DNA of 45,288 bases from Bacteroidota bacterium (GTDB lineage Bacteria; Bacteroidota; Bacteroidia; JABEUT01): positions 1-45,288 of the forward strand of contig JABCZW010000017.1 of NCBI GenBank assembly GCA_013289475.1, in the 5' to 3' direction. Below, piece by piece: positions 716 through 39,370 of the stretch. The position numbers and the translations under genes are program-made. How positions within the stretch are numbered: the stretch's first letter is position 1; each line of letters begins with the position of its first letter. The notes beneath the pieces were generated by a model. The model saw nothing but the letters and a program-made list of their open reading frames with translations, was not told the DNA's origin and ran no database searches.

Positions 716-789
716 GGTCCTGTGGCCGAGTGGCTAGGCAGAGGTCTGCAAAACCTTGTACAGCGGTTCGAATCCGCTCGGGACCTCCA
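716..789 (+). tRNA. tRNA-Cys (anticodon GCA)
   Basis: The cloverleaf can be folded by hand. The acceptor GGTCCTG pairs with CGGGACC, the anticodon arm is GAGGT-CTGCAAA-ACCTT with anticodon GCA, and the T arm is AGCGG-TTCGAAT-CCGCT. The discriminator is T786 and CCA (787-789) is encoded. The gene serves as the integration site: its last 17 bases before CA (771-787) are repeated at 37366 and 39354. At the far chromosomal copy the core is followed by GA rather than CA and then a terminator, so the uninterrupted host gene probably did not encode CCA and element 1 supplies it. Confidence 0.95.
771..787 (+). repeat. attL core of element 1 (in tRNA-Cys)
   Basis: AATCCGCTCGGGACCTC, the first of three identical 17-bp direct repeats; the others are at 37366-37382 and 39354-39370. 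It covers part of the T arm and the 3' acceptor strand of the tRNA, a standard target for tyrosine integrases. Integration here leaves a complete tRNA at the left end. Confidence 0.93.
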
Positions 790-3021: not shown

Positions 3022-4281
3022 TTAATTTAAGCAGATATTCGGTTTAACTACAACCGGCTTTTTATCCACTTTCTCTGCGGCATTAGCCAATAATTTTCTA
3101 CTTACCCGGGCATATACTGCGGTGCTCCTTAAAGAGTTATGCCCCATCATCTTGCTCACAGTCGCAATATCTATATCCTCGTCTAACAATATAGTGTTAC
3201 AGAAGCAATATCGTGCTATATGGTGGGTCACTTTTTTCTTGATGCCGACTAATTCGGCAATAATATGCAGGTAGGTATTCACCTTTTGGTTCGAGAGCCT
3301 GGGCAAAACATAACCGGTGGCCTCACGTAACACTTGGTACTTATAATATATTTCCACCGCCTTTGAAAGTAATGGCAGTTCGATTATTTCTTTCGTTTTC
3401 CGTTGGCGTATTTTCACCCAAAGGCGGTTGTTTTTCTTATCCATCTTTATATCCTCAGCTTTCAGGCATTGGGCATCCATATACCGAAGCCCAGTATAAC
3501 AACTAAATAAAAATATGTCCCGAACTCTTTCGAGCGATGGGTTTTGGCCCAAATCATGCTTGGCAATCAGTTCTATCTCTTCAATAGTTAAAGCCTCCCG
3601 TTGGCTCTTGGTGGCCTTCAGTTTGAAGCCTAAATCAAATGGGCTCCTTTCAATAGCACCGGCACGAACTGCATGTTTTAACACAGTCCTTATCCTGCTA
3701 AGGTATTTGTTCGCGGTACTGCGTAACATACCCCGTTGTAAGGTAGGGTTGATATATTCCGTTAACAGGTATTCCTCAAAGGCCACCAAGTGATTAGTAT
3801 TAAGCTCACGTAGAAGCAGTTGTTTTTGGCCTATGGAATTTAGATACTGCTCAAAATGAACCATCGTAGTCTGGTACTGCACCACTACAGTTGGGCTATA
3901 TTCCCTGGTATGCAGCTTTAATTTATTGATATGCTTCTTAAAGAACTCAATAAAACTCATGTCGTTTATCGTGCTACCATGCTTTAACATGATGCGGACA
4001 TCAATTACAGAGAACCTCTTTCCTGCTCTTTCTTGTGAATCACGCAATTCAAAAACCCTCGCCTCAATATTTGCCAGTTTAAGGTTTAAATAATTATCCT
4101 CTCGTGAAGCTCCTTTCAACCGGCCACTTTGTGCATCCCATTTATTGGGGTCGGCAAAATGGTAAGTAAACAGTTCTATTTTACGCCTGTTTACGATAAC
4201 ACGTACCCAGACAGGATGCTCCCCTTCTTTTTTCTTACGGTCTGGGCGTAAGTAGAATCGTATTGAACAGGCAGTGAGCAT
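3022..4281 (-). CDS. Tyrosine integrase of element 1
   Basis: A site-specific tyrosine recombinase of the Bacteroidota conjugative-transposon/phage type. From the ATG at 4281 it has 419 residues; a TTG seven codons upstream (4302) is less likely. It begins with an Arm-type region (FYLRPDRKKKEG), followed by a SAM-like core-binding domain (about residues 105-210) and the catalytic domain. The catalytic set is visible: R266 (TGLRYMD), K295 (RQRKTKE), H354 and R357 (HHIAR), H381 (MGHNS) and Y390 (AVYARVS). It should catalyse integration at the tRNA-Cys core and excision. It reads towards attL, with an excisionase-like gene directly upstream, a usual arrangement. Confidence 0.93.
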   Translation of the reverse strand: MLTACSIRFYLRPDRKKKEGEHPVWVRVIVNRRKIELFTYHFADPNKWDAQSGRLKGASREDNYLNLKLANIEARVFELRDSQERAGKRFSVIDVRIMLKHGSTINDMSFIEFFKKHINKLKLHTREYSPTVVVQYQTTMVHFEQYLNSIGQKQLLLRELNTNHLVAFEEYLLTEYINPTLQRGMLRSTANKYLSRIRTVLKHAVRAGAIERSPFDLGFKLKATKSQREALTIEEIELIAKHDLGQNPSLERVRDIFLFSCYTGLRYMDAQCLKAEDIKMDKKNNRLWVKIRQRKTKEIIELPLLSKAVEIYYKYQVLREATGYVLPRLSNQKVNTYLHIIAELVGIKKKVTHHIARYCFCNTILLDEDIDIATVSKMMGHNSLRSTAVYARVSRKLLANAAEKVDKKPVVVKPNICLN

Positions 4282-4329
4282 CGGGTTAATGTTTAGTGTC
4301 AAATCTTATTAATTTTTATGAGTGGAATA

Positions 4330-4617
4330 TTATAAATGCCTTTCATTTTCTTTCAAAAGCGCCTCTAAATCACTTAATTTATAATAGACATCACGGCCAC
4401 CAAAACTTGATGAACCTATTTTGAAATTCTTACGTAGTTTATATAAAGTAGATTTTGAAAGACCAGTAATTTCTTTCGCACGAGCCTCGGTTACATAGCC
4501 AGACTGGTTATTATGTTCGGACAATATACGTTCAACTAAAATCTGCAAGCCGTCAACCTTTGAAATGAGGGCGCCCAGTTTCGCCTCATCTATTACTATG
4601 AGTATTTGCTTTTCCAT
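4330..4617 (-). CDS. Excisionase-like HTH protein
   Basis: A 95-residue protein with an amino-terminal helical region and a MerR/HTH_17-type domain: VTEARAKEITGLSKSTLYKLRKN, then FGGRDVYYKLSDLEALL. This is the common helix-turn-helix protein upstream of integrases in Bacteroidota mobile elements. It lies 49 bp upstream of the integrase start and 11 bp downstream of the polymerase-like gene, so the three are probably co-transcribed. Expected role: binding at the element ends to favour excision, or regulating integrase expression. The repeats near both ends would be candidate targets. Confidence 0.8.
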   Translation of the reverse strand: MEKQILIVIDEAKLGALISKVDGLQILVERILSEHNNQSGYVTEARAKEITGLSKSTLYKLRKNFKIGSSSFGGRDVYYKLSDLEALLKENERHL

Positions 4618-4628
4618 GAAACAGCCTG

Positions 4629-6056
4629 TTAACGTGGTTTAAGAAATTCGACCTTGATTTTTGGCGGTATCACCCCTAATACGCGGAACTCATCCTCCAT
4701 GAGTTGCTTTGTCTGCAATTCATATCCCTGCTTTACTATGAAGCTATCATGTATAGTTACGAAAGGGGTAATGCCATGTTCGATTAACTTTGGTGCAATC
4801 CGGTGAATTATAATTCTGGATTCCATTCTCTGCATCATTGCAGAAAGGATTTTATGCGATGCTTTTTGGCCTTCGTAAACCCCTGTGTCTTTCAGGAAAA
4901 GAGACTCGATAAATGGCAAATGCCTGTTTGTAAGATTTTTAATTGTGCGGAAACAACTATAAACAGAGGGGAATTCACTTTTAAAGGCCAATATATGTGG
5001 CCGCTTTTCAATCCGTAAGTTACGGCAAAACATAATTCTAAAAATTTCATTCTTTGCCGTGTCCCTGTCAAAGCCTCTTAACTGCATCCAGTATTCATAG
5101 AGGCAACCGGTGGCACATAGCTCAGCGAACAATTTATAATCAGCATTATTTTTTATTCTATCGAGATACGGAATGCACGGGCTAAATTCAGGCAGAACAT
5201 CATCCACCAATGCTGAGTGTATCGCAATTGAACTAAAATAGACCTGGGAATTCGCCAAATCTAACGCCACAAGGGGCCTGTTAGGTTCATCAGTAAAGTA
5301 CATAAACGGCCTCAACTCTTTCCAAAGGTTGCTTATTTGTGTATGAAACCTCTCGCCAAACTTATCTACCAAATATCTTTCATAGTTCCCTTCATTAATT
5401 GATTCCATTAACATTAGTAGCTCTGAGTAACTCCTTTCAATACCAGACCTGGTTGGCCTCACTGTAATTAATTTCTTTGCCACCTTATTCAAGAAATCTT
5501 CTGCCTTATCAATATCGAAGCGAACCATTTTAAGCATTTCACGCATTGTTCCGTGTATTGGTAATAAGGGGAGGTGCTTGTTATCTGGTTTAAGTCTGAA
5601 TGATTGCTTCAATTCATGTATTGCTTTCAACGTGCTGTGGCTGGTAATCTTTTCTTTCCTGAAATGACGGATACCATACGCAGTTCGTAACAGAGAAATT
5701 GGAATTTTATACTGTACGCTTGAACTGTTTACAGCATAGCTTTTACTACCGGTAATCGTTACCCGAACTTCAATGAGCCTCTTCTTCAACAAAAAGCGCA
5801 TATAGTTGTTATACTTATTTGTTGCAACTTTTGTCAGAAGAATTGAACTCAGCGATACCCATCCTCCCTTATACTTATCGGTCTTTACAACATTATCATT
5901 GCTTGCATCAGCCAACCGTTTCATATAGAATTGATGGTAGATAGCTCTCACGCGGTCGGGCTTTAAACCTGTACCTTCCACCAGTGCATCTATATCCGGC
6001 ATTCCCGCAGGGATATATGCTTTTACTGGAAGGAAACTGATTTCTGGCTTTGTCAT
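4629..6056 (-). CDS. Short family A DNA polymerase-like protein
   Basis: I place the start at the ATG at 6056 (475 residues). The upstream TTG at 6101 would put part of a palindromic repeat inside the coding region. The carboxy-terminal half carries the three family A polymerase motifs. Motif A is LVALDLANSQVYF (D266, Q271). Motif B, the O-helix, reads R331-x3-K335-x3-F339-x3-F343, matching RxxxKxxxFxxxY. A QRMES segment (Q409) matches the Gln helix, and motif C is TIHDSF (H436-D437). No 3'-5' or 5'-3' exonuclease motifs were found, and the first 200 residues are unrecognised, with a wHTH-like feel. A role in replicating the excised element is inferred. The Ser after HD also recalls T7-type RNA polymerase, but motifs A and B favour DNA polymerase. 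Confidence 0.72.
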   Translation of the reverse strand: MTKPEISFLPVKAYIPAGMPDIDALVEGTGLKPDRVRAIYHQFYMKRLADASNDNVVKTDKYKGGWVSLSSILLTKVATNKYNNYMRFLLKKRLIEVRVTITGSKSYAVNSSSVQYKIPISLLRTAYGIRHFRKEKITSHSTLKAIHELKQSFRLKPDNKHLPLLPIHGTMREMLKMVRFDIDKAEDFLNKVAKKLITVRPTRSGIERSYSELLMLMESINEGNYERYLVDKFGERFHTQISNLWKELRPFMYFTDEPNRPLVALDLANSQVYFSSIAIHSALVDDVLPEFSPCIPYLDRIKNNADYKLFAELCATGCLYEYWMQLRGFDRDTAKNEIFRIMFCRNLRIEKRPHILAFKSEFPSVYSCFRTIKNLTNRHLPFIESLFLKDTGVYEGQKASHKILSAMMQRMESRIIIHRIAPKLIEHGITPFVTIHDSFIVKQGYELQTKQLMEDEFRVLGVIPPKIKVEFLKPR

Positions 6057-6080: not shown

Positions 6081-6156
6081 AACTTCTGATAATATTATCA
6101 AAGGTTAAATGACCTTTTGTAGTACATTATATAAGGTAAATGCTACTTGTATCGCC
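6081..6156 (-). repeat. 76-bp palindrome-containing repeat, copy A
   Basis: Read on the minus strand, this segment matches copy C (20837-20912) at 66 of 76 positions by my count. It holds an AT-rich TTATATAATG stretch, CAAAAGG-CATTTAACC, and the central palindrome GATAATATTATC (6088-6099) flanked by partly symmetric AACTT/AAGGTT. It ends 24 bp before the ATG of the polymerase-like gene, so here it could act as promoter plus operator. Confidence 0.85.
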
Positions 6157-6406: not shown

Positions 6407-7327
6407 TTAGATTAGGTATTGATTTTTAATATGCTGAATAACGGCGTACATTAACGGGGGTGGCAGAGCATTGCCAAGTATCCTGACATTGGTAGTCCTT
6501 GCACTGGATGGCATTACAAAAGATTTCGGAAAGCCCATGAACATCTTCATCTCCGGTATTGTTAATCCTCTCCACTTGCCACCTACAAACACTACTAAGC
6601 CATCGGTGGCTGTTATGGTGCACATGAGATTTGATTTGTCCTTCGGTTTTGCATCAAACTGCTTTGGGTCGAATCTCTCAATGTGCGGTGCTACTACCCC
6701 TATCGTTAGAAATCTCGTGGCCTCCTTATTTGGTTTTGGGAAACTAATCCTAACATTGGGTGCCACATCAATTCTCTTGCCGATGAAGATTAGTCGCATC
6801 CTATCTTGTGGAATACCATAATATGAGCAGTTCATGACCTTGTATTTAAACTCATAATCGTTTAGCCCATGTAGCCTTCTTATGATTTCGTTGAAGAGAG
6901 GTATTTTATTTCCCTTCAACATGCCATCCACGTTTTCGGCAGTAAAGGTCATTGGCCTTAGCTCATAAATCAGCCGTATGAACTCATAAAAATTAGCATT
7001 GGCATCTTCAGGCGGATTAGCCGCGGCTTTGGTATTAGCTGTAGAGTAAAGCTTGCAGGGCGGTGAGCCATGCAGGTGGGTAAGTTCACCATGTTTCAGT
7101 CCGGTAATTTTAAATATTTCCTGTGCTGTAACATATTGCACAGCTTTTTGAAGTACCGGTACATCAGCGTTATTGGCCCTATAACAATCCAGTGCCTGCG
7201 TGTCAGTATCTATGCCCAATTTACTGGTTAGTCCCGCTCTGTGGATGCCCGATGAGGCACCGCCACCCCCGCAAAACAAATCAATAGATGTAAAATGCGG
7301 GGGTGTTATTTCAAGGTGCTTGTTCAT
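6407..7327 (-). CDS. DNA (cytosine-5) methyltransferase
   Basis: A 306-residue C5 methyltransferase. Motif I is IDLFCGGGGASSG (residues 15-27), the catalytic motif IV is HGSPPCKLYS (Cys at 91), motif VI is AENVDG near residue 134, and motif X is ILGNALPPPLM near the end. The catalytic loop reads GSPPCK rather than the classical GGPPCQ, a variant usual in phage and element enzymes. No restriction gene adjoins it. Its start overlaps the stop of the ParB-like gene as TAATG, so the two proteins are translationally coupled. It may protect element DNA from restriction or mark it for regulation; its recognition sequence cannot be predicted. Confidence 0.9.
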   Translation of the reverse strand: MNKHLEITPPHFTSIDLFCGGGGASSGIHRAGLTSKLGIDTDTQALDCYRANNADVPVLQKAVQYVTAQEIFKITGLKHGELTHLHGSPPCKLYSTANTKAAANPPEDANANFYEFIRLIYELRPMTFTAENVDGMLKGNKIPLFNEIIRRLHGLNDYEFKYKVMNCSYYGIPQDRMRLIFIGKRIDVAPNVRISFPKPNKEATRFLTIGVVAPHIERFDPKQFDAKPKDKSNLMCTITATDGLVVFVGGKWRGLTIPEMKMFMGFPKSFVMPSSARTTNVRILGNALPPPLMYAVIQHIKNQYLI

Positions 7328-8343
7328 TATTCCTGTGAATCTTCTTCGTTAATATTCTCATCTTCTTCTTCCATAATCCGAAGTGTCATACCATAGCATT
7401 CGCAGCGAGCAGTCGTACAAACAAATGTCCGAGCATCTTCTTCTTCGGGCTCCTTATGGTTTTCTGTTTCAGGTGCTTCCTCTGATTCTTTATTATCCTC
7501 ATCCTTCTCGTCTGATTCTTCGTCAGGAGCAGGTGTATTGGTTTTTTCAGGTTTTACAACCTTTTTTGCCAGTTCTTTTTCATCATTGCTTGGCTGACTT
7601 TCTTGGCGGGTTTTTGGTTTATTCATATTTGCCAAACCTTTCACTACGTGGAAAAACACTTCTTCAAGCACCAGTTTATTTTGACGGACTTTTTCCAATT
7701 GTTTTGGAGCACGTAGCTCAACAACTGCTTCCTGCATCCTGACATCATTAGGTTCTGAGATGGCTTGAGTATCGAGAAATCTTAACAGGTTATTTGCTCC
7801 ATCTATAGACATATTGCCGCTATCAATATACTTGTATAGGCTGGGCCTCGTATCGAAAATGTGTTCATACTTGCCGACTTGAGCCTCAGCCATCTTGAAG
7901 CGAAGCGCAAGACGGGCACGAGTAGACAAGGGACGTTCACCTTCAGGCGAGTAGAGGTCAGAACGTTCTCCCTGTCCTTTAGCCCAGATACGCTTGCGCG
8001 CATTCATCTCGCTGGCAATCTCGAATTTGGTCTTAGTGCGGTACTCATTGCCGATAAGCAATGCGTTCAGCTCTTCCTCCTCGGTTTCGTATTCTTCAAT
8101 GATACAAGGCACCTCGGTCAGTCCAGCCATTACACTTCCAATATGTCTTAAATGGCCGCTAATAATGATATAGTTGTCAAGTTTGTCTTTATCGGGTTTG
8201 ATGATAATAGGATTAACCACCCCGTGTTCTCTAACAGATTCGGCCATTCCTAATTTGTCCTCATCTGTACTTTTGTAGAAGTTCAGAGGGTTTGGGGATA
8301 ATCGCCCAATCATCATCATAACTGTTGTTTTGTCTGTTTTCAT
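7327..8343 (-). CDS. ParB-like nuclease-domain protein
   Basis: A 338-residue protein with a ParB/Srx-fold amino-terminal domain: IGRLSPNPLNFYKS, then SVREHGVVNPIIIKP and the conserved SGHLRH box near residues 62-67. A helical region follows (to about residue 190), then a long acidic and Lys/Glu-rich tail with a short cysteine cluster (CTTARCEC) near the end. ParB-like proteins in elements serve as partition proteins, nucleases or regulators; CTPase-type ParB cannot be claimed from what I see. No ParA is present. It is the upstream partner of the coupled C5 methyltransferase. The scattered palindromic repeats of this element would be a natural target to test. Confidence 0.78.
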   Translation of the reverse strand: MKTDKTTVMMMIGRLSPNPLNFYKSTDEDKLGMAESVREHGVVNPIIIKPDKDKLDNYIIISGHLRHIGSVMAGLTEVPCIIEEYETEEEELNALLIGNEYRTKTKFEIASEMNARKRIWAKGQGERSDLYSPEGERPLSTRARLALRFKMAEAQVGKYEHIFDTRPSLYKYIDSGNMSIDGANNLLRFLDTQAISEPNDVRMQEAVVELRAPKQLEKVRQNKLVLEEVFFHVVKGLANMNKPKTRQESQPSNDEKELAKKVVKPEKTNTPAPDEESDEKDEDNKESEEAPETENHKEPEEEDARTFVCTTARCECYGMTLRIMEEEDENINEEDSQE

Positions 8344-10386: not shown

Positions 10387-10462
10387 ATTCAAGCATACAC
10401 CAAATACATTATACAATGTTTTACAAAAGGGCATTTAACCTTAGATAATATTATCGAAAGTT
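10387..10462 (+). repeat. 76-bp palindrome-containing repeat, copy B
   Basis: Aligned to copy C without gaps: the right 54 bases agree at all but seven or eight positions, the left 22 only weakly. The central palindrome GATAATATTATC is at 10444-10455. It lies between the 3' ends of two convergent genes, so a role as promoter of a neighbour is unlikely here. It marks the border between the core genes and the nucleotidyltransferase cargo. Confidence 0.85.
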
Positions 10463-11124: not shown

Positions 11125-11928
11125 CTAAAGCGGCAATATATGACTCAACCAAGTATTAGCTTGGTCAATGTTATTATTATAAAGTGCTTGAACTACCCTA
11201 TTTGCATTCTCTTTCAAAGCTATAACTTTCTGACTGGCATTCGTTGAATCGCGATAGGTTGAAATACCCCTTATAAAACTAAAGAAATATTCTTCAAGAG
11301 TTGAAGAAAAATAACCATCATTCACTATTTCCTTCTCCAATGTAAATGATTCAATAGGATAGCCCACCTTTGCATTCCAGGCCTTCATTAACCTAATAAG
11401 AGGTTTGATCTGATTATAATTATTCTGGTTCTTCTGCGTTAAAGATGTATTGAACCCATGAGGATCAGTTTCCATCCAGTCCCTATCCGATTCAGGAATA
11501 TAAGTTACTACCGATGAAGAAAAAACATAGCCTGCTCTTTGGTATGCAGGAACTAAATCATATTTAATATGATCTAATTCAAGAACTAATGTAGGCAGGG
11601 ATTTATAAAATATGGAATTGCCATAGTAATCTTCAGAAAATTCCACCAAATAATTCCGATATGTGGATGGATTAACATCTATATTTTCATGGTCAAAAAC
11701 AACCATTAAATCAACATCAGAATTATCGTCGTAATAACGCGGCAATATCGTATCTCGTTTATACGAGCCAAATTCTATTACGTCTATTACTTCCTCTTCA
11801 AAATATGATTTTAGTCTTTTTTTTAATGTATTGACTGATGCAACTATTTTATTTGCCTCATTTGTACCTGCACTTATATAATACTCTCGACTAAGAGTAA
11901 CAAGCTGGTTATTAATAGACATTGACAT
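11125..11928 (-). CDS. OAS/SMODS-like nucleotidyltransferase (active-site intact)
   Basis: 267 residues. The Pol-beta-type signature is GSYKRDT (G54, S55) followed by DNSDVDLMV (D71, D73); the third catalytic acid is D124 in HIKYDLVPAYQ. WMETDPHGF (from W151) and the helical PLIRLMKAWNAKVGYPIESF section are typical of the OAS/CD-NTase substrate-binding half. Enzymes of this class make cyclic or linear oligonucleotide signals, and in CBASS these activate an effector on infection. It is the last gene of the five-gene operon, 27 bp after the second nucleotidyltransferase. The product nucleotide cannot be predicted. Of the three nucleotidyltransferases here it has the most standard active site. 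Confidence 0.85.
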   Translation of the reverse strand: MSMSINNQLVTLSREYYISAGTNEANKIVASVNTLKKRLKSYFEEEVIDVIEFGSYKRDTILPRYYDDNSDVDLMVVFDHENIDVNPSTYRNYLVEFSEDYYGNSIFYKSLPTLVLELDHIKYDLVPAYQRAGYVFSSSVVTYIPESDRDWMETDPHGFNTSLTQKNQNNYNQIKPLIRLMKAWNAKVGYPIESFTLEKEIVNDGYFSSTLEEYFFSFIRGISTYRDSTNASQKVIALKENANRVVQALYNNNIDQANTWLSHILPL

Positions 11929-11955
11929 ATTTCTCTGATTTAATATAATATTAAT

Positions 11956-12735
11956 TTACGGAAATGGAAGGAATAAGTTTAACTCATGTTCAAGGTATTC
12001 TGATAACTGTTCTTTCTCCAAAGCAAGTAACCTTCTCCTGTTTTCATATAAATTAGTAACAAGCCCGCCTAATTCGTTTTCAAACCCCTTATTATTTAAA
12101 TCACTGATGACTTCATACACATATTCTTTTAAAACTGAACAATAAGAATATGAATGGGTGATAATAAAATCTTCGAGATAATAGGAATCGAATGGCCTTC
12201 CATTAAGATAGTTCCAATATTTCAGTATTCGAATAGTTGGAAGAATCATATTACCATTATTTGAGTTCTTAGTTAGTACGTTTTTTTTGAATACTGTTGG
12301 TGAAGTTTTAATCCATTTTAATTCTTTGCCACGTGGCGCAGGTATTTTTACCGTATCACCTGAATACTGGTAAGCCGGTATAATTTCAAATTTCACATGC
12401 TCCAATGGTACAACAACCGAAGGATGGTCAGAATAAACTTCCGTTCTCGGGTAAATTTTCTTATCACATAATTTACGAATTTGATTAAGATAAGTATCAG
12501 GTTGGTATTCATCATTTTTGAAAATGACCAGAATGTCTACATCAGAATTCTCATCCTCTGATATAAATGTACCCCTGTCAAATGAACCAAATACAGTAAC
12601 AATGTGAAGCTTGTCTTGAAACAATCCCCATATTTCCTTCTTTAAATACTCTATAGAGTTTTCAATTTTGCCCTTTAAATTGCTATCAATCTCAAGTGCT
12701 TTGGAAAGTCTTGTAAGGTAAGAATCTACATCCAT
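11956..12735 (-). CDS. OAS/SMODS-like nucleotidyltransferase (third acid Glu)
   Basis: 259 residues, clearly homologous to the gene downstream. GSFDRGT is at residues 50-56, SDVDILV gives D65 and D67, and the third acid is E117 in HVKFEIIPAYQ. WIKTSPTVF and LPTIRILKYWNYLNGRPFDSYYLEDFI match the carboxy-terminal helical half. All three metal-binding positions are acidic, so it is probably active. It lies between the SLATT gene (12-bp gap) and the last nucleotidyltransferase. Why two apparently active copies are kept is not clear: separate products, heteromers, or different triggers are possible. Confidence 0.85.
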   Translation of the reverse strand: MDVDSYLTRLSKALEIDSNLKGKIENSIEYLKKEIWGLFQDKLHIVTVFGSFDRGTFISEDENSDVDILVIFKNDEYQPDTYLNQIRKLCDKKIYPRTEVYSDHPSVVVPLEHVKFEIIPAYQYSGDTVKIPAPRGKELKWIKTSPTVFKKNVLTKNSNNGNMILPTIRILKYWNYLNGRPFDSYYLEDFIITHSYSYCSVLKEYVYEVISDLNNKGFENELGGLVTNLYENRRRLLALEKEQLSEYLEHELNLFLPFP

Positions 12736-12747
12736 TATCAGTAATAA

Positions 12748-13269
12748 TTATAGGCCTAATTCCTTTGTAGTATATTCTTCTTCACCATTTTCAATACCGC
12801 GTTTTGCTCTTTGATAATCATCATCCGAAGTGGGATACTGCTCGGCTTCCTTATTAATTTCATCTATTTCATTAGCAATTAATTCCATTTGCTTAACTAT
12901 ATCCGTACCCGAAGTATGCCCATCGCTAATGTACCCTTGAAGCCTATCGGTCTTTTTCATAACAGCTAAATAACGGTTACCAATCCTTCTATGCCCTTCA
13001 ACTTTTTTGTTGAAATTGAAATAGGTCTGAAAACCACTTAAAAATGCCGCAATGAAAGCAAGAAATATCGGAACAATTTTCACCCAATCCTTTGCCCCAT
13101 CTGTAAGTACAAAAAACAAAACTGTACCCGTTAGTATGTTAATTATTATTAAAGGTACACCAATCCAATAATGATATGTTTCTTTCCTATCTGCCGCATT
13201 AAAGTGCTTCTTCTTACCATATAAGCAGTCAACTTTTATCTTCTTTATATTGTCTTCGGTTGTCGCCAT
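12748..13269 (-). CDS. SLATT-domain two-TM effector
   Basis: 173 residues. KKHFNAADRKETYHYWIGVP leads into two membrane segments at about residues 34-56 and 62-86, then a cytoplasmic tail with EGHRRIGNRYLAVMKKTDRLQGYI and acidic helices. This is the layout of SLATT domains (SMODS- and SLOG-associating two-TM effectors), which are predicted to form membrane pores or disrupt the membrane when activated by a nucleotide signal. The gene starts 1 bp after the stop of the degenerate nucleotidyltransferase and precedes two more nucleotidyltransferases, which supports an effector role. It is the only recognisable effector for three nucleotidyltransferases. Confidence 0.82.
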   Translation of the reverse strand: MATTEDNIKKIKVDCLYGKKKHFNAADRKETYHYWIGVPLIIINILTGTVLFFVLTDGAKDWVKIVPIFLAFIAAFLSGFQTYFNFNKKVEGHRRIGNRYLAVMKKTDRLQGYISDGHTSGTDIVKQMELIANEIDEINKEAEQYPTSDDDYQRAKRGIENGEEEYTTKELGL

Positions 13270-13270
13270 A

Positions 13271-14044
13271 TTATTTTTTATTAATGAACATTGCCCACTC
13301 TGATTTCAGGTAATCACCAGTAGACATTAGCATCATAGAATGTATTTTAGAAGCCTCTGCTTGAAATCCGTTATTACTCATATAAGTCCAAAGCCAGTCA
13401 GGCAAATCTGTTAGCGTACTGCTAACCGAAAACGGAGATAAAAATAAATTACACACTTTTCTCTCTATCTCATAATTCTTAATTCCTTTCTTATAATTGA
13501 AATTCCACAACTTCAATATTTTAATAAGGTCTATAAACTTCGGGTTCTTTTGCCTAAGCCTAATTATTAAGTTTTCCAGCTCTCCAAAATTTATGGATTT
13601 CCAATACTGTAAATAATTATCAGGAATACTCAAATTACCTACGGAGTCTTCTTTATATGGGGTTATATTAATAGGAATTTTCTCGAAGTCAACTAAAAGA
13701 GAAGGCTTATCTTGCTTAACAGTTGTATTTGGATAGCATTCCATCAGACGTGCTTTTAGTTTTGCCAATGCAACCTGTGAATACCCACTACCTGAATATC
13801 GAAAATATACATCAACATCGCTAACTCCTTTTACCATAGTAGCTCTTTTATAAGAGCCACCTAAAAATGGTGCGCCAAAGTCAGGCTCCTTATTAATAAT
13901 TGATTTTAAATTGCTTAATGTAGCAGCAATATTATTCAATTCATTTTGAGAATATGAAATCTGCTCAGCTTTGTCTTTAATTAACTTAGTAAACATCCTC
14001 CATGTTTTTATAATTAATATAAAAATAAGCAATTTCCACGTCAT
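13271..14044 (-). CDS. Nucleotidyltransferase-like protein, third catalytic acid missing
   Basis: 257 residues from the ATG at 14044, which overlaps the upstream stop as ATGA. An ATG at 13996 (MFTKLIKDKAEQ) would remove a hydrophobic leader KLLIFILII and is an alternative. The motif GGSYKRAT (G63, S64) and SDVDVYF (D76, D78) are present. However, the position aligned with D124 and E117 of its two paralogues is N126, in KIPINITPYK. In Pol-beta-fold transferases this acid holds the catalytic metal, so the enzyme may be inactive, or may act as a scaffold or regulator. The carboxy half retains LIKILKLWNFNYKKGIKNYEIE. First nucleotidyltransferase of the operon, translationally coupled to the recombinase. 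Confidence 0.8.
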   Translation of the reverse strand: MTWKLLIFILIIKTWRMFTKLIKDKAEQISYSQNELNNIAATLSNLKSIINKEPDFGAPFLGGSYKRATMVKGVSDVDVYFRYSGSGYSQVALAKLKARLMECYPNTTVKQDKPSLLVDFEKIPINITPYKEDSVGNLSIPDNYLQYWKSINFGELENLIIRLRQKNPKFIDLIKILKLWNFNYKKGIKNYEIERKVCNLFLSPFSVSSTLTDLPDWLWTYMSNNGFQAEASKIHSMMLMSTGDYLKSEWAMFINKK

Positions 14045-14690: not shown

Positions 14691-14807
14691 AAAAGTGAAA
14701 GTAACTTCCCGTTTTTCTCTCATTGATTTCCAGTGCATTAAGTGAAAAGCAGTGTTTTCACTACCGTTATTGCTTTCACTTTTAGCATTCTTATACATAA
14801 GTGAAAG
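14691..14807. promoter_or_regulatory. Cluster of inverted AAGTGAAA repeats
   Basis: The intergenic region between the divergent recombinase operon and the 14846 gene holds five copies of AAGTGAAA or its complement: 14693 (+), 14740 (+), 14755 (-), 14774 (-) and 14799 (+). They form nested inverted pairs: AAAAGTGAAAG (14691-14701) with CTTTCACTTTT (14773-14783), AGTGAAAA/TTTTCACT (14741-14762), and CTTTCACTT/AAGTGAAAG (14773-14807). Operator clusters and recombinase crossover sites both look like this. Their location upstream of a FimB-sized recombinase makes either plausible. Confidence 0.6.
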
Positions 14808-14810
14808 AGC

Positions 14811-14838
14811 CTGCCGGTTCAGGAATATATAAAGTAAA
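14811..14838 (+). promoter_or_regulatory. GATATATAAAGTAAA-type start-proximal motif
   Basis: A segment ending ATATATAAAGTAAA lies 7-20 bp before the ATG at 14846. Similar blocks precede the ATGs at 17798 (17763-17783, CTGGCCGATATATAAA) and 38052 (38021-38036, CTGGACAGATATATAA). Sharing between two different elements suggests a common promoter or an A-rich translation signal. Confidence 0.45.
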
Positions 14839-14845
14839 CACTACT

Positions 14846-15196
14846 ATGAATAAATTTCCACGTTATAAAGATTATAATTCTGCTGCGGAAAATGAAGAAG
14901 ATGCAGATAAGCCCAAATGGACACAAAAGGTGACCTTCCCGCTAAAACCTGATGTATACAACTATATGAAAAGCAAAGAAACATCCTCTGGAACCGCTCA
15001 ACCAGATGAAGAAGATGTTTCGGGGGCGGGGAAGCACAAAGAAGTCCAAGCAACAATTAATTTCAGCCATGAACAGGCAATGTATATGTTTTATCTCGCA
15101 ATAGGCTCATTCGGCATTAGCCCTTCTCAGTTCAAGAAATTTGCTGATGACATAGAGGCCGGTAATATTGAGGAGCCGGTATATAGCACAAAATAA
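14846..15196 (+). CDS. Small element protein, MNKFPRYK family
   Basis: I choose the ATG at 14846, giving 116 residues beginning MNKFPRYKDYNSAAENEED. It aligns with the start of the 38052 protein of element 2: (M-K-PR), an acidic stretch, then W(T/Q)QK(V/I)T(F/L)PL-P--Y-Y. The carboxy part, QAMYMFYLAIGSFGISPSQFKKFADDI, is a helical bundle different from the element 2 homologue. The next gene begins with a similar MNKHLHYKEYNPALEE. No catalytic motif is visible. Its presence in both tandem elements points to a role in element biology rather than cargo. Confidence 0.65.
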   Translation: MNKFPRYKDYNSAAENEEDADKPKWTQKVTFPLKPDVYNYMKSKETSSGTAQPDEEDVSGAGKHKEVQATINFSHEQAMYMFYLAIGSFGISPSQFKKFADDIEAGNIEEPVYSTK

Positions 15197-20836: not shown

Positions 20837-20912
20837 GCCGATACAAGCTGCGTATACCTTATATAATGTAGTCCAAAAGGACATTTAACCTTCGATAATA
20901 TTATCGGAAGTT
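20837..20912 (+). repeat. 76-bp palindrome-containing repeat, copy C
   Basis: The reference copy. It contains GATACAAG, TTATATAATG, the small inverted repeat GTCCAAAAGGAC, CATTTAACC and the palindrome GATAATATTATC (20894-20905). With flanks, the imperfect palindrome spans about 26 bp. It sits between convergent genes (ending 20727 and 20921) and marks the start of the second defence segment. The remainder of the 193-bp gap shows no gene. Confidence 0.87.
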
Positions 20913-22311: not shown

Positions 22312-23223
22312 ATGAAAACAGATTTAGCAACGATTAAAGCAAAACTTGTTTCTTTTGAAAAGAATAAGAACCTGCCTGGCATTAATACTATTGCAAAGCT
22401 TGATTGCTTTACCAGGCATATAGTGGATAGCATTAAACGGATTCAACTGATAACAGATATTCGGGATAAAATTCAAAGCCAGGATAGCATAGATGTTACC
22501 AGAAATAATTTTAACCCACTAAAGGCTGCTATCTATCACAAGCAACATGGCAATATTGATGAGGCCTTTTGGTTGGTTTTTCTTGCTACTCACTTCGGAG
22601 AAGATGAAAAGAAAACAAAATGGCGCTGGGTTCAAGATGTATATAGTGGTTTAGGCGGTGAAGTATGTTGGGACTGGAAGAAAACGAGTATCGACCCTAA
22701 TAGTTTTCGCACATGGCTTGATGCAAACAAGAGCATCCTACTACAAAGGGGTGCTTTTGGGAACCATCGGAAATACCTGAGCCTGAATGATAGTCATACG
22801 GGTATGGCAGTTGCCACCTACGTTAATTGGATTGGGCCAAAACATACGCACCATGATTTAATTAATACAATGCAGGCAAAAACTGGAGTATCTCCTCATG
22901 TATTATTTGATGCTTTATACAAATCAATGGATGCAGTCTTTCAGTTTGGCAGGGTAGGAAGGTTCGATTACTTATCTATGGTTGGGAAACTTGGATTGGC
23001 AATCATTGAGCCTGGGAATCCATATCTGCACGGGGCAACTGGCCCACTTACTGGCGCACGGTTGCTATTCGGGGACGGCAAAATGCCCGATAACACCTTA
23101 AATTATTACTTGCAGGAACTGGGAGAACACTTAGAATTATATTTTGGGATGCAGGTAATAGAAGATGCTGTATGTAATTGGCAAAAAAGCCCTGATAAGT
23201 ACATTACTTCTTTAACAGCATAA
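22312..23223 (+). CDS. Putative alpha-glutamyl/putrescinyl thymine pyrophosphorylase (clade 3-like)
   Basis: 303 residues. The segments GAFGNHRKYLSL, TGMAVATYVNWIGPKHTHHDLI, LFDALYKSMDAVFQFGRVGRFDYLSMVGKLGL and MQVIEDAVCNWQKSPDKY match my memory of the predicted clade 3 alpha-glutamyl/putrescinyl thymine pyrophosphorylase family, related to HhH-type DNA glycosylases. These proteins were predicted from phage and bacterial contexts to act on hypermodified thymine; the bacterial role is untested as far as I know. The gene stands alone, convergent with the Z1 gene 50 bp away. A link to restriction or to modified-DNA handling is inferred from place only. Confidence 0.6.
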   Translation: MKTDLATIKAKLVSFEKNKNLPGINTIAKLDCFTRHIVDSIKRIQLITDIRDKIQSQDSIDVTRNNFNPLKAAIYHKQHGNIDEAFWLVFLATHFGEDEKKTKWRWVQDVYSGLGGEVCWDWKKTSIDPNSFRTWLDANKSILLQRGAFGNHRKYLSLNDSHTGMAVATYVNWIGPKHTHHDLINTMQAKTGVSPHVLFDALYKSMDAVFQFGRVGRFDYLSMVGKLGLAIIEPGNPYLHGATGPLTGARLLFGDGKMPDNTLNYYLQELGEHLELYFGMQVIEDAVCNWQKSPDKYITSLTA

Positions 23224-34742: not shown

Positions 34743-34774
34743 TTCAACCTCCGATAATATTATCGGAGGTTGAA
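34743..34774. repeat. Palindromic repeat, copy D (perfect 32-bp palindrome)
   Basis: A perfect inverted repeat spanning 34743-34774 around the same GATAATATTATC centre (34753-34764); the half-site reads TTCAACCTCCGATAAT. The tail to its left (ATACAAT-TGCTATGAAAGTACATTCAACC) is a diverged form of the tail of copies A to C. It lies 47 bp from the istB stop codon. Confidence 0.8.
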
Positions 34775-34821: not shown

Positions 34822-35559
34822 TCAAGCAGCAATTCTTGCATCCTTCTTTCTCATGGATTCCCCTTTAATCTCTAATCGGTGTGCTTGGTGAATAATCCTA
34901 TCCATTATGGCATCAGCCACTGTTTGTTCTCCGATTATATCATACCATTTATTTACAGGAACCTGCGATGTTATAATAGTCGAGGCCTTCCCGTGCCTGT
35001 CTTCAATGATTTCCATTAGTATTGACCTACTTTGCTGGTCAAATGGCTGTAATCCGAAATCATCAAGTATCAAAAGGCTCTGCCTCTCTATTTTAGCAAT
35101 CTCTCTTACGTAAGAACCTTCGCCCTTGGCAATTTTAAGCTTGCCCATAAGTTTCGCCGTGTTATGATACATAACTTTATGGTTAAGACTGCAAGCCTGA
35201 TGGCCAATTGCCGAAGCAATATAACTTTTACCAATGCCTGTACTGCCGGTAATTAATATATTTTCATGCTTACCGATAAAAGTGCAATCACCAAAACGCA
35301 TTATTTGATTCTTATCCAAGTTACGATCGGTGCCATAATTGAGTTCCTCAAGTGAAGCTTTGTAACGAAACTTGGCATTATTAAGTTGCCGCACTATACC
35401 ACGGTTACGCCTGTCGTCTGACTCCGATTCTATAAGAGTCGATACCATTTCATCAGCAGTATAATCCTCCATTTTACCGGATTCAATACTTGTTTTAAAA
35501 GCCCTGTGCATACCATGCAGGTTCATCTTCTTCATTTTGTCTAACGTTGTGTCATTCAT
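34822..35559 (-). CDS. istB: IS21-family ATP-binding helper protein
   Basis: 245 residues. The Walker A motif is ITGSTGIGKSYIAS and Walker B is LLILDDFGLQPF, both typical of IstB, an AAA+ protein related to DnaC. The sequence RQLNNAKFRYKASLEELNYG before the ATPase core and IMDRIIHQAHRLEIKGESMRKK at the end are family signatures. IstB oligomerises on target DNA and activates the IstA transposase. It follows istA on the same strand after 34 bp. Confidence 0.93.
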   Translation of the reverse strand: MNDTTLDKMKKMNLHGMHRAFKTSIESGKMEDYTADEMVSTLIESESDDRRNRGIVRQLNNAKFRYKASLEELNYGTDRNLDKNQIMRFGDCTFIGKHENILITGSTGIGKSYIASAIGHQACSLNHKVMYHNTAKLMGKLKIAKGEGSYVREIAKIERQSLLILDDFGLQPFDQQSRSILMEIIEDRHGKASTIITSQVPVNKWYDIIGEQTVADAIMDRIIHQAHRLEIKGESMRKKDARIAA

Positions 35560-35593
35560 GTTTTTTAGTTTTTAAGAAAATTAATACTATCGT

Positions 35594-37117
35594 TTATTGG
35601 TAATATTCTTTGCCCCGGATATTATTGTGTTCGGGCATCTTTAGGTGTTCAACTTCCTCCTCTTGCATATCTAATCCTTGTTCCAATATCTTTTTTATAA
35701 TTCTGTAACTATAGATGCCACAGCTTGTAGCACGCTGGCATGCCTTGGTTAGACGTTCATTTCCCACCTTCTTAGCTAAATCAAGAACCCCTGTACATAT
35801 TCTATATGCTTGGTCACGATGCCGTTGGCTCTCAAGTATCACACAGATGTAAGTCTTTACATCTGGGTGTATTCCTTCTGCCTGTAAAACGAATCTGTCC
35901 GAGGCCAACTCGGTTGTAAAACGAAAGGCAGGGAATAAATGCTCATTAACCGTTGTATAAGTAAATGGCAGCCTGTCCCGTTTGTGAAAACAAATGCGCT
36001 CGAAATGGTAAAACATTTCAACAAGCTGACTGGAATAATGAACCTTTATGCTTTTACCTATAAACTGGTAGGGCACACTATACCAGTGTTTATCAGGGGT
36101 CAGGCAAACATGTCCATTTTTAGGGACAGTTATATACATCTGCCTTTTTAATTCGTAACGCAATACAGGGAGGGACACCAAGGCCACCTTTTCTATTTCA
36201 TTGAACAATTGTCTTCGGCTGCATTCTTTCCCTGTTATGATTTGGTTATTATGTTCTTCCAGTGCTAACCAAATAGCTTTGTTCAAATCTTCCAAGGAAT
36301 AAAACTTCAAGTCTCTTAATTTGGCATAGATGCGGGTGTACATAATTTTAACGGCAATCTCAACAGGGGCTTTATCTGTGGGTCTATATACCCTTGCGGG
36401 CAAAATGGCCGTATTGTAATGTTCTGCAAAATCAGCAAAAGTCTCATTTATGGAAGGTTCATACCTGCTACTCTTCTTTACCGCTGATCGCAGATTATCA
36501 CAGACAATTGCCCCAGGAGCACCGCCATAAAATTGCAACGCATTTTCACAGGCCGGAATAAAATCCTCCTTCTTCTGTGTCATAACAGCCTCAACATAGG
36601 TTAGTTGACTGGCACCAAGAATAGCCACAAAAACTTCAACATCTATGCTCTCTCCCGTTTTCTCATCTGTGATGGTCAATTTTTGGCCTGCGAAATCAAT
36701 GAATAGTTTATCACCTGCCTTATGTTCTTGATGCATAGTAGGTTTTATACGGGACGTCCATTTTTTGAAATACCTGTTGAACCTACTATAGCCATAACCA
36801 TCAGGATATTTTTTAATGTATTCTTCCCATAATGTCATGCGAGTAACACCTGTACGTCTAAGTTCTTTCTCCATTGCCGGAAACAAGCCAAGGAGTTTTT
36901 GCAGCATTATATCAACAGGTTTTTCTTCGGGTTTCAAAAAAAGCTCCTCCAAATCTTTGTCACTTAACTCATTTATATCTTCAAAACTCAGGCCGCTTTT
37001 TTTGAAATCAGTAATACATTTTCTCAGCGTGGTACGAAGTATACCTGTTTGCTTTATTATCTCAAAGAAGGCTATCTTTTGAGTATGTAAGCGTAATATA
37101 TGACGTATGTTGCTCAT
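35594..37117 (-). CDS. istA: IS21-family transposase
   Basis: 507 residues. An HTH region near the start (FFEIIKQTGILRTTLRKCITDFKKSGL) is followed by a DDE integrase core: D in GDKLFIDFAGQ, D in AIVCDNLRSAV and E in TDKAPVEIAVKI. The carboxy part (KNGHVCLTPDKHWYSVPYQFIGK) is typical of IstA. It cuts and joins IS ends together with IstB. No frameshift or deletion is seen. Confidence 0.93.
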   Translation of the reverse strand: MSNIRHILRLHTQKIAFFEIIKQTGILRTTLRKCITDFKKSGLSFEDINELSDKDLEELFLKPEEKPVDIMLQKLLGLFPAMEKELRRTGVTRMTLWEEYIKKYPDGYGYSRFNRYFKKWTSRIKPTMHQEHKAGDKLFIDFAGQKLTITDEKTGESIDVEVFVAILGASQLTYVEAVMTQKKEDFIPACENALQFYGGAPGAIVCDNLRSAVKKSSRYEPSINETFADFAEHYNTAILPARVYRPTDKAPVEIAVKIMYTRIYAKLRDLKFYSLEDLNKAIWLALEEHNNQIITGKECSRRQLFNEIEKVALVSLPVLRYELKRQMYITVPKNGHVCLTPDKHWYSVPYQFIGKSIKVHYSSQLVEMFYHFERICFHKRDRLPFTYTTVNEHLFPAFRFTTELASDRFVLQAEGIHPDVKTYICVILESQRHRDQAYRICTGVLDLAKKVGNERLTKACQRATSCGIYSYRIIKKILEQGLDMQEEEVEHLKMPEHNNIRGKEYYQ

Positions 37118-37310: not shown

Positions 37311-37365
37311 ATAAATCGGCACTATATATATGATTGTTATCCAGCCTAATATAGCATAAGGTACA

Positions 37366-37382
37366 AATCCGCTCGGGACCTC
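37366..37382 (+). repeat. Middle tRNA core repeat (attR of element 1 / attL of element 2)
   Basis: An identical copy of AATCCGCTCGGGACCTC without the rest of the tRNA. It is the junction between the two tandem elements and would be the exchange point for loss of either one. Confidence 0.92.
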
Positions 37383-37390
37383 ACTTTGGG

Positions 37391-37520
37391 GTTCATATCA
37401 GTTCATATCAAGCCACCGCTGCACCTTTGACAGTAAGGCTTTTCATACCGGTTCACATCAGTTCATATCGAGACACTTTTGTTTTGGCAGTGTTTTGGCA
37501 AGTAAAAAATGTTTTGGCAG
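37391..37520 (+). repeat. Two families of direct repeats, left end of element 2
   Basis: GTTCATATCA-type repeats start at 37391, 37401, 37451 and 37461. GTTTTGGCA repeats start at 37481, 37492 and 37511, spaced 11 and 19 bp, the same spacing as the GTTTCACCA sites of element 1. Probable excisionase and integrase binding sites of element 2. Confidence 0.72.
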
Positions 37521-37591
37521 CTCCTGCCCTAATATTCATCTCTGTCGGCAAAAAGTAATTTTCCTTAAGTTTACATCCAAAATCTCTTTCC

Positions 37592-37945
37592 ATGGGAATA
37601 AGCAAAATTACTTTTGAGAACTATAAAGCCTTCAAAAACAAGCAATCTATTGATATAAAGCCAATTACGATATTGATTGGCAAAAATAGTTCCGGTAAAA
37701 GTGCTATTGCTAAGTTATTAACATTGATTGACAATGCACTCTCTTATGAAATAAAGGAACCTTTATTAATACAAATAAATGAGAGGAAAGTCCTTTTTAC
37801 CGCAATAATTAAAGTTATAAGGACAGGAAAGAAGGGCGCTTTGACTAAACTACTGGTTATCAGTCATAGTCCCACTATGTACATTAGTGGGACTATTTTA
37901 GCCCTAATTCTCCAGGGCGCGAAAGTCGCCGCCTCGCTTTCATAA
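37592..37945 (+). pseudogene. Truncated AAA ATPase (OLD-like N-terminus)
   Basis: The first 65 or so codons encode a clear ATPase start, MGISKITFENYKAFKNKQSI, with Walker A LIGKNSSGKSAIAK (about residues 28-41). Such ATPases normally run to several hundred residues with Walker B and often a nuclease domain. Here coding similarity ends near 37800. The remaining frame runs through a perfect hairpin terminator (37866-37899) and reads as non-coding translation. I conclude that an internal deletion fused the 5' end of an ATPase gene to sequence downstream of another gene. Confidence 0.75.
37866..37899 (+). terminator. Rho-independent terminator inside element 2
   Basis: ATAGTCCCACTA (37866-37877) pairs perfectly with TAGTGGGACTAT (37885-37896) over a 7-base loop and is followed by a short T-run. 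It lies inside the apparent open frame of the truncated ATPase, which supports a deletion junction upstream of it. Confidence 0.7.
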
Positions 37946-38020
37946 TACCCCAACGGCGTACGTTCCCATTTATACTTAGATGGACATATTTCCAGTATAT
38001 GTTCAGATAAGTACTTAAAA

Positions 38021-38036
38021 CTGGACAGATATATAA
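38021..38036 (+). promoter_or_regulatory. CTGG-C-GATATATAA motif in element 2
   Basis: CTGGACAGATATATAA ends 15 bp before the ATG at 38052. It matches the motifs at 17763-17783 and 14824-14838 of element 1. Sharing between the two elements suggests a common promoter type. Confidence 0.45.
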
Positions 38037-38051
38037 ATGAAAACGTTCACC

Positions 38052-38375
38052 ATGTATAAACTACCAAGATTCAACTCATTCCGTTTAGTCAACGAAGCAG
38101 AGGAAGACAAATCAGAAAAAGATTGGCAACAGAAAATCACTCTACCGCTTCCACCATCCCTTTACCGGGACTACGCAACTCAGGCATCTGAACCGGAACT
38201 TGTAAGTAAAAGCGCGAAACTTACTTCAGCAAGGAATAAAGCCAGGCTTGGCAATGAGCATATATTAAGTGCGCTTGGTGACCTAATCAGAGCAATGGAT
38301 TTAGATGGGAAAGAAGTGATTGATTACATCTTGGCAAACGATTTGGTGAAAGGCGAAAGTACTGACGAGCCTTAA
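38052..38375 (+). CDS. Small element protein, MNKFPRYK family (element 2 copy)
   Basis: 107 residues from the ATG at 38052 (MYKLPRFNSFRLVNEAEED); an ATG five codons upstream is also open but overlaps the conserved upstream motif. The region EEDKSEKDWQQKITLPLPPSLYRDYATQ aligns with the element 1 protein at 14846 (DKPKWTQKVTFPLKPDVYNYM). The carboxy part, GNEHILSALGDLIRAMDLDGKEVIDYILAND, is helical. Conservation in a 2-kb remnant and in the large element suggests a core element function. No enzymatic motif. Confidence 0.7.
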   Translation: MYKLPRFNSFRLVNEAEEDKSEKDWQQKITLPLPPSLYRDYATQASEPELVSKSAKLTSARNKARLGNEHILSALGDLIRAMDLDGKEVIDYILANDLVKGESTDEP

Positions 38376-38393
38376 TACCATTGGATAGGCAGG

Positions 38394-38717
38394 TCAAGGG
38401 TAAGCATTGAACATTTCATCCCAGCAACCGTAGGTCTTATACCGAACGCCAAGTATAAGCGCTTGCCGGCTGTTGTATCTTACTACATTATCTATTTTGC
38501 CCATCATATAATAGAGTGCCTTTGGCATAATAAGTTTTGCACCATTACTGTAATCATAAACAAGCTCCTGATATTCCAGCCACGCATGAACATATTGCAA
38601 ATCCTTAACCGGACCGGCAGTACCGGTTACTACACCATGACATAAAAACCAACCTTTGTTAAATGGCTTGGTAAGCAGAGCATCGTAATTGGCTTTAAAG
38701 CAATCTCCTTTCTTCAT
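38394..38717 (-). CDS. Small unknown protein of element 2
   Basis: 107 residues. KKGDCFKANYDALL, HGVVTGTAGPVKDLQYVHAWLEYQELVYDYSNGAKLIMPKALYYMMGKI and RYNSRQALILGVRYKTYGCWD suggest a compact globular domain with conserved Cys, His and Tyr positions, reminiscent of small papain-like or transglutaminase-like proteins seen in phages. I cannot assign it. Convergent with the MNKFPRYK-family gene. Confidence 0.6.
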   Translation of the reverse strand: MKKGDCFKANYDALLTKPFNKGWFLCHGVVTGTAGPVKDLQYVHAWLEYQELVYDYSNGAKLIMPKALYYMMGKIDNVVRYNSRQALILGVRYKTYGCWDEMFNAYP

Positions 38718-38722
38718 TACAC

Positions 38723-38989
38723 TCAGTTACTTATTGTTTCTAATGTATACCCGAAGCTCTTTACGAACCTCTTAAACTTCCTGTCAGTTTTGCTTTCTTC
38801 TTCAATAAGTGCAGGTAAATTTTTCACAAAGGCATCTTCTATTTTTTTATGCTCATGCCCAACATAATTATTCGGTCTTAACACTTCCGCAATTATCCAA
38901 TAATAGCAGTGCAATAATTTGTCATCTATGGCCCTTGCCCTCCGCTGCATTAAATACATACAGGGAACGAACACAATCGCAAGCACCAT
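38723..38989 (-). CDS. Small unknown protein of element 2
   Basis: 88 residues; the start may be the ATG at 38989, or 38959 (MYLMQRRARAIDDKLL), which would remove a hydrophobic leader. The remainder is helical: YYWIIAEVLRPNNYVGHEHKKIEDAFVKNLPAL, then KFKRFVKSFGYTLE. It lies 5 bp upstream of the 38717 gene on the same strand, so both are probably one transcript. No family is recognised. The 247 bp upstream to 39236 hold no gene that I can see. Confidence 0.5.
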   Translation of the reverse strand: MVLAIVFVPCMYLMQRRARAIDDKLLHCYYWIIAEVLRPNNYVGHEHKKIEDAFVKNLPALIEEESKTDRKFKRFVKSFGYTLETISN

Positions 38990-39236
38990 AGCGGTAGAAA
39001 GGATGGTTATATTGTACCGTTCTAAATAGCACGTAATTATCAGGGTAGAAGGAAGGTCAGAAATGGAGTAACTCTATAAGACTCCAGTCTATAATATCCT
39101 TACCACCACTTATAGAAATAAGTTGCAGTTGTAGCATTTTTGAAATAAGAAACTGCTTGGCCTAAAACAACCTTCGGTACACCGTAGATTTTAATTCAGA
39201 AAAATGGGAAAACGGAAAGGCCTTTTTGACCGAAAC

Positions 39237-39297
39237 GTTCATATCCGTTCACATCTGTTCACCTCTATTCACCGATGTTTTGGCTATGTTTTGGCAG
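39237..39297 (+). repeat. Direct repeats at the right end of element 2
   Basis: Four GTTCAYATC-like repeats start at 39237, 39247, 39257 and 39267 with an exact 10-bp period. Two GTTTTGGC(A/T) repeats follow at 39277 and 39288 (spacing 11), ending 56 bp before the core at 39354. This mirrors the right end of element 1 in spacing and distance. Confidence 0.75.
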
Positions 39298-39353
39298 ATT
39301 AAAATATGCTTTTACAATGGCTTGCCAACCAGCAACATGCGAGGCAGGGTACC

Positions 39354-39370
39354 AATCCGCTCGGGACCTC
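39354..39370 (+). repeat. Outer attR core (element 2 / host junction)
   Basis: Third copy of AATCCGCTCGGGACCTC. It is directly followed by GA and the host terminator, so this is the original 3' end of the host tRNA-Cys locus. Confidence 0.93.

Follow-up and report, generated by a model that had tools for sequence, protein, structure and literature searches.

Whether an integrative element may carry its own polymerase for copying itself after excision is the question raised by a gene in the 45,288-nt window from a Bacteroidota bacterium (the whole stretch of DNA that was analysed). This gene (4629-6056, minus strand; ATG at 6056, stop codon at 4629-4631) encodes a predicted compact family A-type polymerase of 475 aa, or of 490 aa if an in-frame TTG at 6101 is used as the alternative start. 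Its stop codon is separated by only 11 nt from the start (4617) of a gene in the same operon for a 95-aa HTH_17 excisionase-like protein (4330-4617, minus strand; Pfam E 4e-7), and next to it lies a tyrosine integrase gene (3022-4302, minus strand) with the Pfam domains Arm-DNA-bind_5, Phage_int_SAM_5 and Phage_integrase. The polymerase gene is the first gene of this operon, which agrees with the integrase/HTH operon described in the initial annotation of this DNA. Upstream of it are genes for a C5-cytosine DNA methylase (6407-7327, minus strand; Pfam) and a ParB_N-domain protein (7327-8343, minus strand; Pfam), giving the minus-strand order ParB, C5-methylase, polymerase, HTH_17, integrase. 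In the closest relative (L126), ParB, methylase and polymerase are found in the same order, with other genes separating the methylase from the polymerase.

The operon belongs to a tyrosine-recombinase-type integrative element, as shown by its integrase and by direct attachment repeats at a tRNA gene. The integration target is tRNA-Cys(gca) (716-789, plus strand), the 3′ end of which serves as the left attachment repeat (765-787, plus strand), and the right repeat (37360-37382, plus strand) is identical to the tRNA copy at 21 of 23 positions. The element between them covers approximately 788-37382 (36.6 kb), and its integrase operon is close to the tRNA gene. The tRNA-Cys 3′ end occurs a third time at 39348-39370, where it delimits a 2-kb unit (37383-39370) beside the main element, which is perhaps the remnant of a second element; a 112-aa ORF in this unit (38037-38375) resembles, by eye, the ORF at 14801-15196. 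The cargo includes HEC-05/GmrSD, MzaC/Z1 and a SinI-type restriction set, as well as a CBASS-like cluster and an enzyme of thymine hypermodification. This last enzyme is encoded at 22312-23223 (aGPT-Pplase3 / amino acid:DNA transferase, E 7e-88), in an element that has many restriction genes. Three cyclase ORFs of SMODS/CBASS type, with a 2TM effector lying between, are found at 11125-14044, and an IS21-like IstA/IstB pair, recognized by eye from the sequence, lies just within the right attachment repeat (34822-37117). Among the ~20 larger window ORFs scanned, no relaxase, conjugation apparatus, helicase, or phage structural or packaging gene was seen. Defence-cargo islands with tyrosine integrases that are transduced by jumbo phage likewise have an integrase, flanking repeats at an RNA gene and defence cargo, and, like the window element as far as its ORFs were scanned, they are without recognized transfer genes; they insert at tmRNA in Pseudomonas rather than at a tRNA gene, and the available portion of that report does not mention a family A polymerase (PMC12595487). 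The same genome has, on contig C37 (L241:3525-6878), a 1117-aa fusion that adjoins a tyrosine integrase and consists of an N-terminal helicase-like part, a DEDD (3′-5′) exonuclease and a full DNA_pol_A domain. This is a second, different PolA-bearing element, and it shows that PolA-type replicases travel with integrases in this lineage.

The catalytic motifs read from the gene in the initial annotation were all found at the residues given there and are conserved in relatives. On the minus strand, motif A (D266-L-A-N-S-Q271; 5244-5261) aligns to DYSQIE without a gap and is followed by the O-helix pattern R331-x3-K335-x3-F339-x3-F343 (5028-5066), the Gln helix Q409-x-x-E412 (4821-4832) and motif C, H436-D437-S438 (4743-4751). 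In an alignment of 26 sequences, for which relatives were gathered by whole-protein similarity and not by motif, R236, R249, D266, K335, P363, Q409, E412 and D437 are invariant, and S270, Q271 and H436 are conserved at 90% or more. Since this alignment was built by whole-protein similarity, the invariance shows that the motifs are not due to chance. Among 75 members, R236, R249, D266, K335, Q409, E412 and D437 are present in all 75, H436 in 74 and R or K at 331 in 72; part of the larger sets, this one included, was fetched with D-x-x-NSQ or Q-x-x-E patterns, so that conservation there is partly built in, and the conservation of R236, R249, K335 and D437 is unaffected by this. The canonical DYSQIE with its Glu steric gate is replaced by DxxNSQ, with Gln at +5 in 74 of the 75. 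From the gapless register of DLANSQ on DYSQIE, we take Q271 to be at the steric-gate position, E710 of Klenow.

We found that the protein is, by sequence comparison, a member of a large unnamed family of Bacteroidota, their relatives and huge phages. When searched as a single protein against Pfam, NCBIfam and PDB sequences, it gave no match, and Pfam detected no exonuclease domain in its 475 aa, neither the 5′-3′ nor the 3′-5′ exonuclease of Pol I (PolA1), as had been claimed. A weak match (E 5e-4) was obtained to phrog_4756, an entry to which PHROGs assigns neither a function nor a fold and which is matched by 7 of the 26 members (best E 1e-5). The DNA_pol_A (PF00476) cut-off was reached by none of the 26 members, nor by the window gene in a scan of its own genome. 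Whole-protein searches gave distant relatives on two Hymenobacter plasmids and in two huge uncultured phages. Pattern scans of viral and genome contigs with the single protein gave nothing; patterns from sub-alignments later succeeded and added 51 viral and 22 genome loci, the latter from Bacteroidota, Ignavibacteriota, Chlorobiota and Verrucomicrobiota. Of the 395 genomes searched from this class, 16 carry the gene, the window's own among them, and within the genus only the window's genome has it. In the tree, the window protein pairs (support 99/93) with a homologue that is 46-48% identical to it and comes from a palsa Bacteroidetes MAG; this pair lies inside a clade of Bacteroidota elements, the phage members mostly form one group, and deeper placement is unsafe because of long branches. 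One family member (L119:9022-11079) has a C-terminal GIY-YIG/NUMOD1 homing-endonuclease-like extension. In L019, the idea of a homing endonuclease inserted in frame at the active site was rejected, as this part proved to be a C-terminal GIY-YIG/NUMOD extension. One Bacteroidetes MAG has two copies of the gene (L086, L087), one intact and one broken by a stop codon. No published description of the compact family was found in the literature searched; it may stand in the 2023 reclassification of family A.

The predicted structure agrees with a family A polymerase. The AlphaFold model of the whole protein, made from a 49-sequence alignment, has a pLDDT of 90.6 and a pTM of 0.88. In the model, D266 closes the strand 262-267, residues 331-343 form one helix, Q409 and E412 are on the helix 402-426, and D437 is in the beta turn between strands 433-435 and 438-442, so that the motifs follow the family A order with their residues placed on secondary structure as in Pol I. 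Foldseek listed 50 PDB matches, every one of them to a family A DNA polymerase (probability 1.00, E 3e-5 to 3e-4), including Pol theta, Bst, Taq, M. smegmatis Pol1, T7 DNA polymerase and the apicoplast polymerase. Among viral structures the best match has E 5e-20, an uncultured marine phage protein named 'Putative DNA polymerase I' has E 6e-17, and a nameless 409-aa protein with TM-scores of 0.66/0.76 is among the best matches. With global TM-scores of only 0.26-0.39 against solved polymerases, the likeness is confined to the core and does not extend over the entire outline. The family HMM matched only three PDB chains, all of them Pol I (E 0.3), in register at the O-helix, the Gln helix and motif C. 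Comparisons by hhalign with three sequences were too thin to decide and were repeated with deeper profiles, in which the C-terminal part of 75 members matched PolA with P 3.6e-5 (71.5%). As negative controls, column-shuffled, reversed and integrase profiles all gave P of at least 0.11. The low TM-scores together with the profile probability of 71.5% indicate that the homology is deep. The listed fold matches being family A, an AEP catalytic fold was not found, and Pfam gave no match to a plasmid Rep_3-type initiator (Rep3_N / Rep3_C) in the protein; in two loci, Rep3 is encoded by a gene of its own nearby. The initial annotation would have given up its claim of a family A-like protein for a fold without a palm domain, and the model has a PolA-type palm. 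Taken together, these results show that the predicted fold is the palm-fingers fold of Pol I type, and the protein is very probably a reduced and deeply diverged relative of DNA polymerase I that has a putative DNA-binding head.

With family A DNA polymerases such as Pol I (Klenow), Pol theta and T7 DNA polymerase, the protein shares this predicted palm-fingers fold, the order and register of motif A, O-helix, Gln helix and motif C, and a GR motif upstream of motif A that is conserved likewise in the compact family. In contrast to them, it has neither the 3′-5′ nor the 5′-3′ exonuclease domain, lies below Pfam detection, has DxxNSQ for DYSQIE and HDS for HDE, and has an added N-terminal winged-helix-like domain. 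The groups of a 2026 survey are PolA1, PolA1-like, PolA2 (APEX) and PolA3, and no compact wHTH/NSQ family was found in the portion of it that is available (PMC12926913).

The first 200 residues (5457-6056, minus strand) had been called unrecognized, which holds as far as Pfam is concerned, in which they have no match. When they were modelled separately (pLDDT 88.5), they looked like a winged-helix domain together with the start of the thumb. The top Foldseek matches are mostly MarR-type wHTH proteins, the best with probability 0.87 and E 0.03 and none at E 1e-3 or below, and DnaD_N and Lin1244_N gave weak matches, each in single members. The model thus hints at a winged-helix domain that may be a DNA binder. 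A 26-bp palindrome, AACYTYNGATAATATTATCNRARGTT (6081-6106), lies 25 bp upstream of the polymerase start codon, and further copies are found at 10437-10462, 20887-20912 and 34746-34771. With up to two mismatches, there are exactly four such sites in the 2.6-Mb (57% complete) assembly, all of them in the element, against a chance expectation of 0.00, and the palindrome sits within a longer conserved repeat of ~59 nt. Three of the copies are between convergent genes or downstream of operons and not at promoters; therefore, the palindrome is a candidate parS for the ParB of the element, as likely as it is an origin or an operator for the polymerase. No palindromes common to the relatives' loci were seen in four relatives.

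The association of the gene with integrases is not confined to the window. In 20 genome loci that were found without motif selection, a tyrosine integrase is present within 10 kb in 10 (0.83 expected, binomial P 2e-9) and within 20 kb in 15 (1.6 expected, binomial P 3e-13), and among the nearest neighbours Phage_integrase is the family that occurs most often, with HTH_17 recurrent too; some relatives are without a nearby integrase. Six elements of 10-37 kb, including that of the window, could be delimited by repeats of tRNA 3′ ends, and the other five (tRNA-Glu, 35 kb; tRNA-Arg, 10.8 kb; tRNA-Asn, 16.9 kb; tRNA-Arg, 20.8 kb; tRNA-Leu, 10 kb) each contain both an integrase and the compact polymerase. 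These results show that the compact polymerase is a core gene of integrative elements, as the initial annotation had proposed. Small conserved unannotated proteins (~71-83 and 107-113 aa) adjoin it in two delimited elements of the smallest class (L102:5435-5992, L253:8694-9032, L253:11026-11274). In one group of huge phages, two unannotated proteins flank the family gene (L080:9128-9661, L045:6025-7353); they are present in 48 and 47 of 52 loci and have no Pfam match.

Beyond the computed family membership, conserved active site, predicted fold and association with integrative elements, we infer DNA binding, nucleotide choice, a replication role and action at initiation. In the reading that we prefer, to which we give a probability of about 0.5, the gene encodes a catalytically competent, exonuclease-less family A polymerase with a winged helix, which as a core gene would take part in copying the element mainly at initiation. 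The protein would consist of a winged-helix DNA-binding domain at the N-terminus joined to palm, fingers and a small thumb, and would act after or together with the excision driven by Int and the HTH protein. The winged helix would bring the palm to a site on the element, for which the 26-bp palindrome beside its own promoter is a candidate, and the palm would there make or extend the first strand, by priming or by primer extension. Bulk synthesis would be left to host polymerases or, in some elements, to a separate exo+ PolA and a helicase-like protein. The winged-helix-like head joined to a palm, the integrase/HTH operon and the coexistence of relatives with other replicases argue for such a role, as does the analogy with the PrimPol-PV1 families, AEP primases on cryptic tRNA-integrated elements without phage and conjugation genes (PMC5862659). 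In these mobile-element primases the polymerase domain is joined to a DNA-binding domain, as is predicted here, whereas the compact polymerase has a family A rather than an AEP fold and is without PriCT or a fused helicase (PMC5862659). A more specific proposal, which we hold only tentatively and consider doubtful, is that the whole family consists of Pol I-fold primases or initiators, in which the winged helix would pick the origin of the element or phage and the NSQ palm would start chains, as AEP or DnaG does elsewhere.

It is unlikely, in our estimate, that the protein is the element's own replicative DNA polymerase, copying the whole circle after excision. It is the only recognizable polymerase in the element of the window and in the smallest delimited elements (10-11 kb; L102, G274), and in its own assembly DNA_pol_A matches were found on contigs C65 and C37 only; it could still be the sole polymerase of these elements. 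In contrast, it has no exonuclease, no helicase or primase was recognized beside it in the small elements, and other members coexist with full replicases. In at least three elements (L108, L114 and L120), a second, exo+ polymerase of family A and a DUF5906-type P-loop protein that has the look of an SF3 helicase (Walker motifs by eye) lie 0.3-4.4 kb away from the compact gene, and a DUF3127 protein, presumably an SSB, recurs there as well. In the 595-kb phage LR756511, the compact gene is directly upstream of a truncated PolA, and PolIII alpha is also encoded; split family B polymerases are found in LR745206 and in four other viral contigs. Another replicative polymerase is thus present in each of the six phage records tested, and no DnaG N-domain was found in the six, which may hint at another primase. 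The separate exo+ PolA of L108, L114 and L120 may be of the PolA3 kind, which the available part of the 2026 survey describes as carried by phages and prophages (PMC12926913). A conventional Rep is present on both Hymenobacter plasmids, either of the Rep_3 type or annotated as a replication initiation protein. Both have a gene with this annotation as well as ParA, for which reason the compact polymerase was rejected as their sole Rep. The coexistence with full replicases means that the compact polymerase is not an obligatory bulk replicase. Thus, of the earlier proposal that excised circles replicate by their own polymerase, a role in replication of the element stays the best guess, and the part that made this protein the sole enzyme is not supported, since relatives coexist with an exo+ PolA, phage polymerases or a plasmid Rep. 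By analogy, initiation, priming or accessory synthesis in the replication of the excised element is more likely than the work of a sole replicase.

An RNA polymerase or RNA primase, related to the single-subunit RNA polymerases and either transcribing element promoters or making RNA primers, seems improbable as well. T7-like RNA polymerases share with the compact polymerase a family-A-related palm and the motif C sequence HDS, which is not HDE; the steric-gate position is Q and not E, the N-terminal domain resembles a DNA-binding domain, and PF00940 is weakly matched by 2 of the 26 members (best E 0.021). However, no significant profile or fold match to these enzymes was obtained, with no RNA polymerase among the 50 PDB matches listed by Foldseek, and the spacing from the GR motif to motif A is PolA-like. 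When compared with 28 phage RNA polymerases, the family gave P 0.026 (1.9%), so that PolA is preferred in the profile comparison with a P some three orders of magnitude lower, and T7-type RNA polymerases were rejected as the closest kin.

We consider it distinctly unlikely that the gene is cargo, a repair, translesion or defence polymerase carried on islands. The element is packed with defence genes, and family A enzymes without proofreading can serve repair. Against this, the gene sits in the integrase/HTH operon and not among the cargo, is present in small elements with unrelated cargo, and has a syntenic core position in the huge-phage group; PADLOC gave no match, and a defence-system component was rejected on this ground. 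A protein that has lost catalysis and only regulates the integrase operon by binding DNA would fit the operon position, the winged-helix-like domain and the palindrome at the gene's own promoter. This is very improbable, since all 75 members, highly diverged as they are, retain both metal-ligand aspartates, the Lys of the O-helix and the Gln of the Gln helix.

Few enzymes have been studied as well as the family A polymerases, yet a deep, exonuclease-less branch of them with a winged-helix-like head, a palm and DxxNSQ has no Pfam or NCBIfam model. The compact family marks a class of tRNA-integrated elements, some of only ~10 kb, and links them to phages of at least 600 kb; the presence of the gene in both small integrative elements and huge phages could reflect a satellite-helper relationship. 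If the protein primes, it would be a primase with a family A fold, and if it copies the element, it would be among the smallest self-contained element polymerases. Under either reading, replication of the excised element is now directly testable.
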